Positions 17,313 to 29,300 of a stretch of 38,119 bases of DNA are shown here, in pieces. The notes beneath the pieces were generated by a model, which was not told the DNA's origin, searched no databases, and saw only the letters and a program-made list of their open reading frames with translations. Each line of letters begins with the position of its first letter. The stretch's first letter is position 1. Position numbers and translations under genes: made by a program. The stretch comes from Chromatiales bacterium. GTDB lineage: Bacteria > Pseudomonadota > Gammaproteobacteria > Thiohalomonadales > Thiohalomonadaceae. The DNA lies in contig QKFD01000113.1 in NCBI GenBank assembly GCA_003251535.1, positions 1-38,119 of the forward strand, given 5' to 3'.

Positions 17313-17765
17313 TTACTGAGCCTTAGGCGCAGCAGGGGCAGCATTGCGGTTTTCCCAAGCCTTCTGCGCCTCTTCCATCATCTTCTGGTGACGCTCCATC
17401 ATCTGCTTCTGGTGCTCTTCGAAGTTCTTACGAGCGGTCTCGTCAAACCCCGGGCCGTAGCCGTAGGGGGCGGCGCCATAGCCGTAAGGAGCACCACCGT
17501 AGCCGTAGGGGGCGCCGTAACCACCACCGTAGGGGGCACCGTAGCCGTAGGGGCCGTAGCCATAGGGGTTGCCGTAGTAATCGCCGTAGCCATTGCCGTA
17601 TCCACGGCCGCGGGCACTCATGTTGAAGTCGAAATCACCATCACCGAACATGTCGTTGAAACCGTTGCCGTTCCAAGGACCACCACCGCCCCACCAGGCG
17701 TTGGCGGAGGCAGAGGCAGCGATCAGAGCGGCGGCAGCGGCCAGCTTGAGGGTCTTCTTCATCAT
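17313..17765 (-). CDS. Sulfur globule protein, SgpA/SgpB-like, with helical tail
   Basis: Sgp proteins form the protein envelope around periplasmic sulfur globules in purple sulfur bacteria. This 150-aa protein has a signal peptide ([20 protein letters not shown] then ANA, cut before WW at about 23/24). The mature start [20 protein letters not shown] is close to that of Chromatiaceae Sgps, and a Gly/Tyr/Pro repeat region (about 54-106, units like PYGYG and APYG) follows. Unusually the last 45 residues form a charged, Met/Gln-rich helix ([21 protein letters not shown]) with an Ala/Pro end. AGGAG lies 8 bases before the ATG at 17765. A near-consensus promoter and a strong terminator flank it as a single-gene unit, consistent with high expression. 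Other glycine-rich secreted proteins are possible, but the N-terminal block favours Sgp. Confidence 0.85.
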
Positions 17766-24980: not shown

Positions 24981-26450
24981 ATGTCCAAATTGGTACCTAT
25001 CTGCTGCGCCATTGCCCTGATCCTCCCTATGGGCTTCACCGCTGCCCTACCACTGGAGGGTAACGTCCCCGCCATCTTTGGCATCGGGGTCGCGGCCGAT
25101 AGCGATAGGCCACAGATGGTCGATTCCATGCCGATCACCTACTACTACCAATACTTCACCGCCGGCTTCGACTACGGCTGGGGCGACTGGAACTCACCCG
25201 AGTACGCCTTTGCCGACATCTGGCTTGGGGTGGGCGAGAGCAATGGTTGGTTCCCGGTGATCACCTACTACCAGGTGGTCCCTTCCGACAACAGCTGGAT
25301 GGATCCCCCCACCCAACAGTTGACCAATACCAGCAACATGGCCAACTACTATGCCGATTTCCGGGCCCTCCTGGATAAGATCGCCGCCTATGACAAGCCA
25401 GTGATTGTCCATCTGGAACCGGATCTGCTGGGTTATTTTGAGCAGTGGGCCACGGCCAGTAACCCCAACGACCCCGATCCCACCTCCATTCCCGTGGCGG
25501 TGGCCTCCTCCGGCTACGCGGGGACCAGCGGGTATCAGAACAACGCCCGCGACTTCTTCCGCTTTCTCCACCACCTGCGTGACACCTATGCCCCCAAAGT
25601 GATACTCGGCTGGCAGGCATCACTCTGGGCCAATGGCACCGATCTCATCGTTAATCAGGGTGATCCCGTGGTGATAGCCAACGATATTGCGACTTTCTGG
25701 GGCAAGTTTGGGGTCACTCCCGATGTGATCTTCAGTGAGTTCTCCGATCGTGACTCCGGTTTCTACCAGCAGCAGGGTAAAGATCGCTGGTGGACCGATG
25801 CCGATTTTGATCGCCAGCGCACCTTCCTGAGCCAGTTCACCACCCTGGTGGGGAAGAAGGCGATCCTGTGGCAGATCCCCATCGGCAACACCTGGTATCG
25901 CGCCTGCAACAACACCGATCACCACTATCAAGACAACCGCGCAGAGTACTTCTTTGAGTCGGTCCTCAACGGCAATGGCGATATGACCCATCTCCAGGAG
26001 TATCGGGATGCGGGCGTGGTGGCCCTCCTCTTCGGCCAGGGAGAAGCGCGTCAGACCCGCTACTGGGATGTGGTAGACAGCGACTTCCCTGCCCTACCTG
26101 ATGGCGTCACTAACCCGGCCCCGATCAATAACGTCGCCAACAAAAGCGGCCACGACAACACCCGCACCTCCCTCAACGCCGACAACGACGGCGGCTACCT
26201 CCGCGCCGGGATCACCGCCTACTACCAATACGGCGCCCTGCCTTGGAGCGATAGCTGCAACGGCACCACCGTCACCATCACCAACCAAGACCTCTCCGGC
26301 ACAGTCACCTGCACCGCCACCACCTCCATCACCGCAGGCCCTGCCGTGCAGGTACTACCCAACGCCAACGTCAACTTCCACGCCCCGACCATCCAACTAC
26401 TGCCCGGCTTCACCACCCAGACACCCACCTATTTCCGCGCTGGCCAATAA
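24981..26450 (+). CDS. Secreted TIM-barrel-like protein, possible glycoside hydrolase
   Basis: A 489-aa exported protein. It has a signal peptide (MSKLVPICCAIALILPMGFT then AA, cut at about 22). The main domain (about 30-400) is rich in Trp and Tyr and has alternating strand-helix blocks as in glycoside hydrolase barrels: ITYYYQYFTAGFDYGWGDW, VIVHLEPDLLGY (E146, D148) and DVIFSEFSDRDSG. AILWQIPIGNTWYRACNN follows. E-P-D resembles acid residues in some cellulase-type barrels, but I cannot name a family. The last 67 residues form a separate beta-rich module with TATTSITAGPAVQVLPNANV and QLLPGFTTQ, a pattern found at the C-termini of secreted adhesive or sorting proteins. No clear ribosome site precedes the ATG. 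A C/G hairpin (26462-26485) follows the stop. Confidence 0.75.
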   Translation: MSKLVPICCAIALILPMGFTAALPLEGNVPAIFGIGVAADSDRPQMVDSMPITYYYQYFTAGFDYGWGDWNSPEYAFADIWLGVGESNGWFPVITYYQVVPSDNSWMDPPTQQLTNTSNMANYYADFRALLDKIAAYDKPVIVHLEPDLLGYFEQWATASNPNDPDPTSIPVAVASSGYAGTSGYQNNARDFFRFLHHLRDTYAPKVILGWQASLWANGTDLIVNQGDPVVIANDIATFWGKFGVTPDVIFSEFSDRDSGFYQQQGKDRWWTDADFDRQRTFLSQFTTLVGKKAILWQIPIGNTWYRACNNTDHHYQDNRAEYFFESVLNGNGDMTHLQEYRDAGVVALLFGQGEARQTRYWDVVDSDFPALPDGVTNPAPINNVANKSGHDNTRTSLNADNDGGYLRAGITAYYQYGALPWSDSCNGTTVTITNQDLSGTVTCTATTSITAGPAVQVLPNANVNFHAPTIQLLPGFTTQTPTYFRAGQ

Positions 26451-26506: not shown

Positions 26507-26892
26507 CCGGACACCCATGCCAGCCACCAGCAGCCACGCATAGGCGACCGTCGCCACACAGCAAAGCGATCCGCTGAGGACCAACAAAAAGGCCCCGGCT
26601 AATGCCGGGGCCTGGTGGGCGGTGGCGCCAATCCACTCCCTAACTTTGCGACGCCTGAGCCAGAGGGAATCTTTACCTGGACACCCATTCATGGCTGCAT
26701 AGCGGTGACAGTAGCGCCCTCATCCCCGGCATTCTCTACTAGCAGGACATCCACCTCATGCAGCATTCCCTAGCAGGACACCCACCTCATGCAGACGCTG
26801 GACACCCATGCAAGCGGTTGAAATGCTTTCTCCTCTTCCTGGACACCCAACGTAACCGATTGGAGTGGAGTCGATGGAAAGAGGGGGGTTAA
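26507..26892. repeat. Long repeat, unit 1 (386 bases)
   Basis: Begins CCGGACACCCATG and ends GGGGGGTTAA before the next unit. It differs from unit 2 by an extra 31-base internal duplication (26742-26772 repeated from 26773), which adds the GGACATCCA variant, and by scattered substitutions. Confidence 0.88.
26585..26612 (-). terminator. Repeated intrinsic terminator, copy 1
   Basis: GGCCCCGGC (26591-26599) pairs with GCCGGGGCC (26604-26612) around TAAT, followed on the minus strand by TTTTTG. The stem is identical in all three copies. Confidence 0.8.
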
Positions 26893-27257
26893 CCGGACAC
26901 CCATGTCAGCCATCAGACACCGCACATAGGCGACCGTCGCCACACAGCAAAGCGATCCGCTGAGGACCAACAAAAAGGCCCCGGCTAATGCCGGGGCCTG
27001 GTGGGCGGTGGCGCCAATCCACTCCCTAACTTTGCGGCGCCTGAGTCAGAGGGAATCTTTACCTGGGAATCTTTACCTGGACACCCATTCATGGCTGCAT
27101 AGCGGCGACAGTAGCGCTCCCATCCCCAGCATTCCCTAGCAGGACACCCACCTCATGCAGACGCTGGACACCCATGCAAGCGGTTGAAATGCCTTCCCTC
27201 TTCCTGGACACCCAACGTAACTAATTGGAGTGGAGTCGATGGAAAGAGGGGGGTTAA
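26893..27257. repeat. Long repeat, unit 2 (365 bases)
   Basis: Same order of elements as unit 1, without its 31-base insertion but with its own 14-base tandem duplication GAATCTTTACCTGG (27053-27066 and 27067-27080). Confidence 0.88.
26971..26998 (-). terminator. Repeated intrinsic terminator, copy 2
   Basis: Same hairpin as copy 1: stem halves at 26977-26985 and 26990-26998, with the T-run on the minus strand at 26972-26976. Confidence 0.8.
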
Positions 27258-27416
27258 CCGGACACCCATGCCAGCCCTCAGCTACCACATAGGCGACCGT
27301 CGCCACACAGCAAAGCGATCCGCTGAGGACCAACAAAAAGGCCCCGGCTAATGCCGGGGCCTGGTGGGCGGTGGCGCCAATCCACTCCCTAACTTTGCGG
27401 CGCCTGAGTCAGAGGG
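27258..27416. repeat. Long repeat, unit 3 (partial, 159 bases)
   Basis: Holds the first part of the unit: CCGGACACCCATG, the palindrome, the terminator hairpin and CGCCTGAGTCAGAGGG. It stops 15 bases short of the M48 protease stop codon, so it forms that gene's 3' region. Confidence 0.88.
27334..27361 (-). terminator. Repeated intrinsic terminator, copy 3; terminator of the M48 gene
   Basis: Stem halves at 27340-27348 and 27353-27361, with the T-run on the minus strand at 27335-27339. At about 70 bases past the M48 stop it is the natural terminator of that gene. Confidence 0.85.
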
Positions 27417-27431
27417 TCACAGACGGGGTAG

Positions 27432-29300
27432 TTAGCGCAACCGCTCCCCTGCCCGCTTCACCTTCTCCGCTACCCGATCCTGCTTACCACCCATCTTGAT
27501 GACATAGCTCTGACCAGGAAGGTCTAGCAAGGCCACCAGCCGCTGCTCTAGCTTGGGGGTCCGCAGCTTACTCTCGTAAGCAACCACAAATAGTGGCCGT
27601 TCCGGGTGGTGATTGAGCCGCTTACGTGCCAGATAGAGGCGATCAACCTCATCCATGTTCCGCAGCCGCGCCCGCACCTCACGCACCTGCTCGCCGGAGA
27701 GCTGCGCGGGCTCGAAGGCGTCGGTCACCCGCACAGAGGCACGCTCACGCTCCGCAGCCTGTTCAATCTCTTGCTGCTGCTGCGCCCGACGTGCCCAGTT
27801 GCGGCGCTCCAACTCGTTACCGACCCGCTCGAAGTACTCCATCGCCAACCGACTCGCCTCCAGTACCAGCCCCTCATGTTCGGCGGCATGGCGGATGAAG
27901 ATGACACCGCGCGGATCATCCCGGGCGAGGAGCAAGCGACCCAAGGCCAGTTCCCCTTGGGGATCGGAGGGGCAGCGGCGGTAGTAGGCGTAGTAGAGCG
28001 AGAGTGGGTCCTCTTGCAGCTCTGCAGAAAAACGCTCCGTCAACTGGGCCCGCTCCCACAACGCCTCGGGCAACAGGGCATCGATCTCCATCTCAGCCAG
28101 CCGATCCAGTCGCTCACGGGCGGCCTGCACCTCGATGTAGCGCTCCTGCCACTCCACCTGCTCCTGCTCTGCCCACGCCTCGTCCATCTTCTCCAACAGA
28201 CGGTGATAACGGCGTTCCAGCCACACCTCGGCAGCTGTGCGCCGCATCGGCTTGGGGATCTCCGGAGGGGCCCCCAGTGCCGCCAAGCGATCACGCAGGG
28301 CTGGGTGGCTGTCAGTGAGACCGGTGTCAGTTTCGGTAGCGGAGGAGATACGTGCCAGTAGCTCTGCGCGTTGCGGCCGGTAGTCACGGAGAAAGACGGC
28401 AAGCCGGCTATAGGCATCGGCCACTGGCCCAGACTCCTGATCCGCCAAGGCCCACAGCGGCTTCCAAAACTGCTCCTCTACCACGCTACCCTTCAGCTCA
28501 CAGCTCACCAGGGCCATAGCGGTGGTCTCCTTGGAGGTGATCTCCGCGGCCACCGCGTCAGCCTCATACTCAAAGCTACGGGCCAAAACAAAGCTGTAGG
28601 CGCCAAAGTAGGGGGCATACCACTCAAAGAACTGCCGCATCCAGCCCCCACCCCAGCTCTGGTCACCGGCATAGGCGTCCATCACCCGACGCCAGTTATC
28701 CCGTGCCTTATAGAGCCAGCGGTTGGAACCACCATGGTTGGAGGAGAGGTGACCCAACTCATGGGCCAACACCGCACGGGCCTGGCTTGGGGTAAGTGCC
28801 ATCAGCAGCTGGATCCCCAACACCAAGGTGTTGTAGTTCCAGCCTAAAGCACCCAATCGGGGAGTTTGGACAATGGCGGCATTGAGATCGGTGCTAATGC
28901 GTACCTCGTGGATACGAGGGGTAGCAAGCTTAGTCGTCAGGGCGTCGATCTCTTTATAGAGCGCCGGGGCAGCACCTCGGCTCACCCGATAGCCCTGGGG
29001 CGGTTCTACCCGGGCCCACAGGGCACGCGCGAGAACAAAGACTAGAATAGCAATAGGGAAGATGGCCGCCTTGCTGAACAGCACATCTAACAAGGCCGTC
29101 TCGGAGTAGACCGACCAGACATAGAGTCCCAGGACGGCCACCAAGGCCGCCGCGGTCCCCACAAGCACCGCGTGCCCCAGAACAGCCAGCACCGTCACTC
29201 GCCGCCGGTAATTTGACGGATCATCCCGGCTGGCCTGCTCGGCCTGTTCGACAAGTTGCTGGAATCGCTCCAGCTCCTCGGAGTTGAATGTCTCAGCCAT
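27432..29300 (-). CDS. M48-family membrane metalloprotease
   Basis: A 622-aa zinc protease of the HtpX/Ste24 type. Two membrane spans near the N-terminus (about 36-66 and 74-95) precede the catalytic domain. The zinc motif is HELGH at 180-184, and a further glutamate ligand is expected in SFEYEADAVAAE (about 243-254). The C-terminal 300 residues are helical and charged, with a TPR-like segment (LSLYYAYYRRCPSDPQGELALGRLL) and then RERASVRVTDAFEPAQL, so they may mediate substrate or partner binding. HtpX itself is about 290 aa; this is one of the long M48 proteins with a C-terminal extension. Likely role: quality control of membrane proteins. Its 3' end abuts the repeat array, which provides its terminator. 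The GGAG ribosome site is about 10 bases upstream of the ATG. Confidence 0.88.
   Translation of the reverse strand: MAETFNSEELERFQQLVEQAEQASRDDPSNYRRRVTVLAVLGHAVLVGTAAALVAVLGLYVWSVYSETALLDVLFSKAAIFPIAILVFVLARALWARVEPPQGYRVSRGAAPALYKEIDALTTKLATPRIHEVRISTDLNAAIVQTPRLGALGWNYNTLVLGIQLLMALTPSQARAVLAHELGHLSSNHGGSNRWLYKARDNWRRVMDAYAGDQSWGGGWMRQFFEWYAPYFGAYSFVLARSFEYEADAVAAEITSKETTAMALVSCELKGSVVEEQFWKPLWALADQESGPVADAYSRLAVFLRDYRPQRAELLARISSATETDTGLTDSHPALRDRLAALGAPPEIPKPMRRTAAEVWLERRYHRLLEKMDEAWAEQEQVEWQERYIEVQAARERLDRLAEMEIDALLPEALWERAQLTERFSAELQEDPLSLYYAYYRRCPSDPQGELALGRLLLARDDPRGVIFIRHAAEHEGLVLEASRLAMEYFERVGNELERRNWARRAQQQQEIEQAAERERASVRVTDAFEPAQLSGEQVREVRARLRNMDEVDRLYLARKRLNHHPERPLFVVAYESKLRTPKLEQRLVALLDLPGQSYVIKMGGKQDRVAEKVKRAGERLR

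Follow-up and report, generated by a model that had tools for sequence, protein, structure and literature searches.

Enzymes of the Y1/HUH type cleave single-stranded DNA, keep the 5' end attached to a tyrosine, and then join it to a 3' end again. Of the described groups, TnpA-Y1 subclass 2.3 resembles the enzyme considered below in protein length, in the motifs NHYH, WE, and YVDLNP, in the occurrence of several copies per genome, and in its frequency in Gammaproteobacteria. According to the sections of Quentin et al. (2018; PMC6006769) on this subclass, its members have a median length near 325 amino acids, an HuH motif NHYH, a W motif WE, a Y motif YVDLNP, core insertions, and an extended C-terminal tail that contains a conserved serine, and neither automatic nor manual search yielded REP-like sequences at genes of subclasses 2.1 and 2.3. 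No biochemistry for subclass 2.3 was found in our literature search. The TIRtrons (TIRYT) are comparable in layout, with a Y1 gene between terminal inverted repeats (TIRs); in the sections of Di Nocera et al. (2013; PMC3733652) used here, some TIR families recur through the genome, dimers and clusters included, some TIRs share the core GGGGWSAS, and we found no mention of duplications that start at a TIR. The same sections of PMC6006769 assign 20 of 26 TIRtron examples to subclass 2.1. REPtrons and REPINs of the REP/RAYT system likewise combine a Y1 enzyme, a repeat-flanked gene, and non-autonomous intergenic copies, REP sequences carrying a GTAG or GTGG foot on a stable hairpin, and IS200/IS605 elements have subterminal hairpins at both ends. 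The TAACTGA direct repeats of Beggiatoaceae are also short and intergenic, occur in gammaproteobacteria and other phyla, and are of unexplained origin in the sections of PMC4679880 used here, but they are 7-bp direct units that, in the principal genome of that study, mostly sit immediately before start codons; the words "transposase" and "RAYT" do not occur in the main text of that paper. Literature searches returned nothing, by title and the start of the abstract, on TGGGTGTCC or GGACACCCA in connection with a transposase, and nothing, by title, on HUH enzymes and tandem repeats.

The locus compared here with these systems belongs to a 38,119-nucleotide stretch of a Chromatiales genome, analyzed whole and referred to as the window. 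Between the stop of a plus-strand ORF (26450) and that of a minus-strand M48 peptidase gene (27432), 11 exact copies of GGACACCCA lie on one strand within 26509–27268, against a mean of 0.40 and a maximum of 2 in 100 shuffles of the window, and a variant, GGACATCCA at 26745, makes a twelfth (Table 1). On the minus strand the word reads TGGGTGTCC. The copies are carried by two full units and a partial one, with start-to-start distances of 386 and 363–366 bp, so that the array and its unit structure are as first described in the original prediction. Matched blocks of units 1 and 2 are 92–99% identical, and over 177 bp the third copy reaches 76%, the reason being that its homology runs out at about 27416. 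Neither unit length (386 or 365) is divisible by three, and the DNA-level role proposed for the array is supported. CRISPR had been excluded from the outset, rightly: CRISPR arrays have 24–48 bp repeats and regular unique spacers, whereas here a 9-bp word recurs at irregular spacing and the sequence between words is itself repeated.

Table 1. Features of the array and its neighbors in the window
Feature	Position	Strand	Basis
Solo array of TGGGTGTCC ends; full units of 386 and about 365 bp, partial unit of 159 bp	26507..27416	-	sequence, unit comparison
TGGGTGTCC copy; outer end of array here	26509..26517	-	word count
TGGGTGTCC copy	26679..26687	-	word count
Variant copy TGGATGTCC	26745..26753	-	sequence
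TGGGTGTCC copy	26776..26784	-	word count
TGGGTGTCC copy	26800..26808	-	word count
TGGGTGTCC copy	26841..26849	-	word count
TGGGTGTCC copy	26895..26903	-	word count
TGGGTGTCC copy carrying duplication scar	27079..27087	-	word count, duplication scan
TGGGTGTCC copy	27142..27150	-	word count
TGGGTGTCC copy	27166..27174	-	word count
TGGGTGTCC copy	27206..27214	-	word count
TGGGTGTCC copy	27260..27268	-	word count
14-mer tandem duplication, proposed nick/fill-in scar	27051..27078	-	TRF 27051-27080, duplication scan
Terminator-like hairpin, unit 1, carried along	26590..26613	-	terminator scan
Terminator-like hairpin, unit 2, carried along	26976..26999	-	terminator scan
Terminator-like hairpin adjoining M48 gene, probably original copy	27339..27362	-	scan; position
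GGCGACCGTCGCC palindrome, passenger	26543..26555, 26929-26941, 27292-27304		word count
M48 peptidase gene, convergent neighbor	27432..29300	-	ORF and domain search
489-codon ORF, convergent neighbor, no Pfam match at E <= 0.001	24981..26450	+	ORF, Pfam

Two features of the array had been overlooked: a strong minus-strand terminator-like hairpin in each unit, and a 14-bp tandem duplication that directly abuts a copy of the word. The array copy adjoining the M48 stop is probably the original one, and the unit therefore includes the M48 gene's own tail. A word stands at the outer end of the array. The junction between units is located about 11 nt beyond one, which misfits a simple cut at the word, and we therefore ascribe the 365–386-bp units, with the M48 gene's terminator, to what was probably ordinary tandem duplication. 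The terminators thus multiplied may reinforce the end of transcription at this locus. The three hairpins would also fit selection on the cluster for terminating transcription or processing RNA between convergent genes, with the word as a passenger; we regard this as very improbable, given that the unit of the window is unmatched elsewhere in the genome although the word recurs in other arrays, and that Rfam returned nothing at gathering score in the window. The search of the host genome for the full unit, which had been proposed as a check, came back empty, the 931-bp block having no second match in the assembly. The GGCGACCGTCGCC palindrome, present once per unit as claimed, had been read as a RAYT-linked motif; because the block that holds it is single-copy, it looks instead like local sequence carried in the unit. 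An assembly artefact has next to no probability: some other arrays of this genome do run to contig ends, but this one lies mid-contig, is bounded by single genes, and has units that differ by 1–8% in matched blocks and by a 14-bp duplication. The array locus is not shared by any of the 19 other genomes in the family sample, 2 of which carry relatives of the M48 gene (35% identical). Two paralogs of the M48 peptidase are present in the host genome (C85:62010–63848 and C100:5689–7518, 52% and 43% identical); when plasmids were searched with the protein, none of the 6 records returned reached 60% identity. Elsewhere in the window, at 17454–17568, are short tandem repeats whose units measure 15 and 21 bp.

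In the 4.63-Mb host assembly, TGGGTGTCC occurs 147 times compared with 29 for the reversed control, so that, by the density check first suggested, the word exceeds chance elsewhere in the genome. Many of its places are clustered (among the 100 of 147 listed), either as exact short units of 15–20 bp (clusters C3, C25, C27, C57, C16, C105, and C116) or as longer, irregular clusters (C30, C40, C46, C53, and the window). The sequence between words varies between the clusters inspected, C27 and C105 being alike, and because it differs in this way and the block of the window is single-copy, the arrays seem to derive for the most part from sequence already at each site. Those that reach contig ends (C25, C57, and C116) indicate that such arrays are hard to assemble.

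Regular TGGGTGTCC arrays are directly adjoined by 5 of the 12 copies of TGGGGTCAGA in the host genome, the reversed control of TGGGGTCAGA numbering 2. At all five (C3:24485, L033; C25:65, L034; C57:33797, L042; C105:10656, L301; C116:69528, L303) the layout is TCTGACCCCA, a few bases, and then the TGGGTGTCC array on the same strand; a variant, TCTGACCCCG, is found at C27 (L035). Since TGGGGTCAGA conforms to GGGGWSAS, the core described at the ends of other Y1 elements, two types of Y1 element may interact at these places.

The original prediction held that the word resembles motifs near REP-associated Y1 transposases and that no transposase is present. The second statement is correct for the window, but the genome holds, by profile search, at least 6 copies of a subclass 2.3-type gene, which were found only through a profile built from array-adjacent genes. 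This profile (330 positions) gave 7 matches at E <= 1e-10 (13 rows at E <= 10), 6 of which come with an N-terminal end and an upstream flank of their own (C65, C34, C75, C124, C40, and the end of C38). The C65 and C34 genes are complete or nearly so, with open frames of 336 and 327 codons for the two complete copies; those at C75, C124, C40, and the end of C38 are cut off where their contigs stop, which is to be expected of repeated genes, and C48 holds a fragment. The search for a Y1 gene with the same flanks, also suggested at the outset, thus succeeded, the word lying just outside the copies at C65, C34, C40, C38, C75, and C124 and pointing outward on both sides of the C65 gene. The first candidate, C38:15950, the only host Y1 gene found by Pfam, was rejected: we judge it 2.1-like by its NHVH and FIELNP motifs, and its locus lacks the word. 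In the profile search it forms the next row (E 1e-9).

Elements with this transposase that end in TGGGTGTCC measure 1.1–1.3 kb and encode a Y1 (HUH) enzyme of about 330 residues, which by length and motifs, rather than by the published profiles, fits TnpA-Y1 subclass 2.3. In a 14-row alignment, N70, H71, H73, W162, E163, Y183, D185, L186, and N187 are invariant, P188 is nearly so, and the residue at the third place of HuH is variable (most often Y, otherwise F, L, V, or P); a long segment separates HuH from Y, and an invariant S204 follows Y, which may correspond to the core insertions and the tail serine of the subclass. NCBIfam REP_Tyr_transpos matches all 14 sequences at E <= 0.001, member 1 falling below its cut-off, Pfam Y1_Tnp matches 3 of 14, and the PDB gave no match by sequence. 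The AlphaFold model (mean pLDDT 78.7, pTM 0.81) predicts an HUH Y1 fold: its best Foldseek match in the PDB, and the sole one at E <= 0.001, is the REP transposase 4er8 (E 5.7e-5, TM 0.56 by target length), followed by ISDra2, a Sulfolobus transposase, and IS608 at E >= 0.016.

To avoid circularity, we picked loci by protein profile from the host genome, 56 relatives, and 369 genomes of the class, using part of the listed matches (86 loci, 72 distinct hits, and 64 complete genes). The profile derives from array-adjacent genes and may favor lineages that use this word, and some stretches of the host and of G055 were picked with their words already known, the protein searches returning the same genes. 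In the 600-bp flanks, the commonest outward 9-mer is TGGGTGTCC itself, found at 35 of the 64 genes (33 upstream and 18 downstream) and pointing inward at 2; the exact word is absent from 29 of 64, which counts against its generality, and it stands on both sides of only part of the genes. Some genes that lack it have a two-sided variant, for example TGTGTGTCC, TGGCTGTCC, TGACTGTCC, or TGGGTGTCT, and the outward words TGGGTGT and TGGNTGTC are found at 45 and 51 of 64 genes, respectively. By hand count, 20 of 33 genes have their first upstream copy 66–85 nt ahead of the first aligned residue, and 12 of 18 have the first downstream copy 178–210 nt past the stop. An inverted match of at least 8 bp with TGTC on both sides occurs at 33 of 62 genes versus 4 of 62 in the same-strand control.

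Homology between gene copies of the same genome ends within −15 to +12 nt of the end of a TGNNTGTCY word at 29 of 55 ends, against a chance of 1%, and within −3 to +1 at 9 of 55; 26 of 55 end away from any TIR-like word, which is evidence to the contrary. The comparison was limited to pairs of at least 82% identity and 250 bp and to ends away from contig and locus edges, and 20 of the 55 ends come from one genome, G338. Three copy comparisons in the host genome stop exactly at ...GTGGATGTCC. From the flank counts and these homology stops, TGGGTGTCC is, as judged from sequence, the outward-pointing terminal inverted repeat of a repeated element. The proposed association with REP-linked enzymes therefore stands: the word flanks a Y1 family here and in other phyla, but it is not a REP, lacking the foot and showing no hairpin excess. 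Folding beside the word averages z −0.17 relative to shuffles over 46 upstream and 38 downstream stretches (below −2 in 5 of 46 and 1 of 38), nor are hairpins in excess within 110 nt inside the word. As folding does not exceed that of shuffles, recognition is probably linear, unlike that of REP or IS200, and a REP identity was rejected in favor of a linear inverted terminal repeat. The TIRtron core GGGGWSAS is found in neither TGGGTGTCC nor its complement GGACACCCA. Relative to subclass 2.3 as published, with no REP-like sequence in the sections of PMC6006769 cited above, the differences are thus a linear inverted end of about TGNNTGTCY and solo arrays.

Arrays with three words within 5–35 bp of each other were sought in named genomes, giving a sample of at least 115 stretches. 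The Y1 transposase (about 330 residues) is encoded, whole or in part, at 32 of the 115 array loci sampled, and at 28 of these 32 the words within 400 bp of the gene are outward 124 times and inward 4 times (hand sums). The contigs with a gene beside arrays are labelled Gammaproteobacteria, Myxococcota, Acidobacteria, and Phycisphaerae, many being metagenome bins. Arrays of TGGGTGTCC also occur in a bin labelled Klebsiella pneumoniae, possibly wrongly (CAMAXW01; L049, L069, L084, and L094), with a subclass 2.3-like gene at L084.

Across the 369 class genomes, close-packed words (5–35 bp apart) were found in 23, of which 19 carry the gene, and the reversed pattern is close-packed in one genome, G231. 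The gene, called at E <= 1e-60, is present in 51 of 369; counting against the association, 32 of these 51 are without close-packed words and 4 of the 318 gene-negative genomes have them (G172, G303, G331, and G382). The resulting table (19/32/4/314) gives a Fisher p of 1e-14. Among the 56 relatives, the median ratio of motif to control is 1.51 with the gene (n = 10) versus 0.77 without it (n = 46), with p 0.003, or 0.009 without the host genome (gene at E <= 1e-60); four of the ten with the gene (G009, G014, G017, and G029) have a ratio below 1, and their missing motif enrichment also counts against the association. In these searches, close-packed words and the gene go together across genomes. 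The association could also arise if the element inserted by pre-existing TGGGTGTCC arrays of another origin or function, such as binding sites of a host protein, a reading that would accommodate both the 4 genomes with close-packed words and no gene match and the 83 of 115 array loci that have no gene within the stretch covered. We hold it to be unlikely: the spacing between word and gene is similar from case to case, with the word pointing outward on either side, and the homology between copies often includes the word. A word that lies within shared homology at a recurring position travels with the element.

The 14-mer doubled beside a copy of the word in the window raised the question of whether such duplications are general. 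We scanned for near-tandem duplications with a minimum length of 7 bp and with the word in neither copy, since repeats holding the word had dominated a looser scan. The scan covered 910 distinct contexts that are not independent (several per genome or array, with the 127 hits below falling in 76 loci). Duplications start at −3, −2, −1, and 0 of the word's end 28, 14, 40, and 27 times, compared with a mean of 4.6 per position from +5 to +39, and starts at −5 to 0 are found in 127 of 910 contexts versus 16 of 3826 random anchors in the same loci. The protein-selected loci gave 20 hits at −3 to 0 in 113 contexts, one context being counted three times, and the host genome gave 6 in 67. In the window, the scar is present at 1 of 11 exact copies, which counts against the proposal; this duplication can be read as starting at the base that follows TGGGTGTCC, and its maximal repeat starts at −2.

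Shuffled 9-mers have a duplication in 6 of 549 contexts. Among single-base variants, for which the counts are small, changes of position 4 to A or C keep duplications (TGGATGTCC, 9/71; TGGCTGTCC, 7/78), as does position 9 changed to T (4/65), whereas duplications are nearly absent after changes at positions 6, 7, and 8 (0/30, 0/45, and 1/42; 1/117 in sum) and absent after changes at position 2 (0/24). Changes at positions 1, 3, and 5 still show them (5/59, 6/48, and 3/37), counting against a strict consensus, so that the core is not sharply TGNNTGTCY. The better-tolerated base changes match the TIR variants on gene flanks.

The period of the duplications is 7–18 bp, with a peak at 11–13; background duplications have much the same periods, and the period is therefore not diagnostic. 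The doubled unit tends to end in TCC, as if a second site resembling the first, or help from microhomology, were behind it; since a duplication starting at −3 looks the same as one whose unit ends in TCC, the cut base is uncertain by about three positions. Slippage and unequal crossing-over acting alone, on a duplicated intergenic block with a common word and no enzyme, would account for the TCC ends, which microhomology slippage also predicts, for the background-like periods, and for 365–386-bp units that resemble ordinary segmental duplication. It would leave aside that the same word recurs in arrays of many genomes with an excess of duplications at its 3' end, that variants at positions 6–8 nearly abolish this excess, and that close-packed words track the gene, and we accordingly give it a low probability. 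The short duplications at the 3' end of the word suggest the cut site of an enzyme and the mode by which the arrays grow.

We propose that the enzyme recognizes the word as a linear single strand, with a core of about TGNNTGTCY, and would nick it at or near the 3' end of TGTCC. From the free 3' end, some 7–18 nt would then be added by a polymerase, with the enzyme still holding the old 5' end; once this displaced end was rejoined, the word would be followed by a doubled stretch (word-X-X). Where the copied stretch itself holds a word, the product would be word-X-word, and repetition would build arrays as a by-product of the enzyme acting in trans. In the window, one or more seed words in the tail of the M48 gene would have undergone small duplications, and blocks of 365–386 bp would later have been doubled, most simply by slippage or unequal exchange. 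We consider it likely that the locus is, overall, a solo array of same-orientation TGGGTGTCC ends produced in this way, by a subclass 2.3-type enzyme through nicking, fill-in, and religation, with later doubling of blocks. The broader proposition, that subclass 2.3 TnpA is a site-directed amplifier of local DNA that nicks TGGGTGTCC-type single strands at TGTCC, fills in 7–18 nt, and religates them, is more tentative, and we put it at somewhat short of an even chance.

Subclass 2.3 had been described without a REP-like partner. A recognition word, an expected cut position, and a countable scar make the activity of the subclass directly testable. If the proposition is true, it would represent a Y1 activity distinct from transposition that continually makes intergenic tandem repeats in several phyla, and it would offer an enzyme-based origin for a class of bacterial intergenic tandem repeats.
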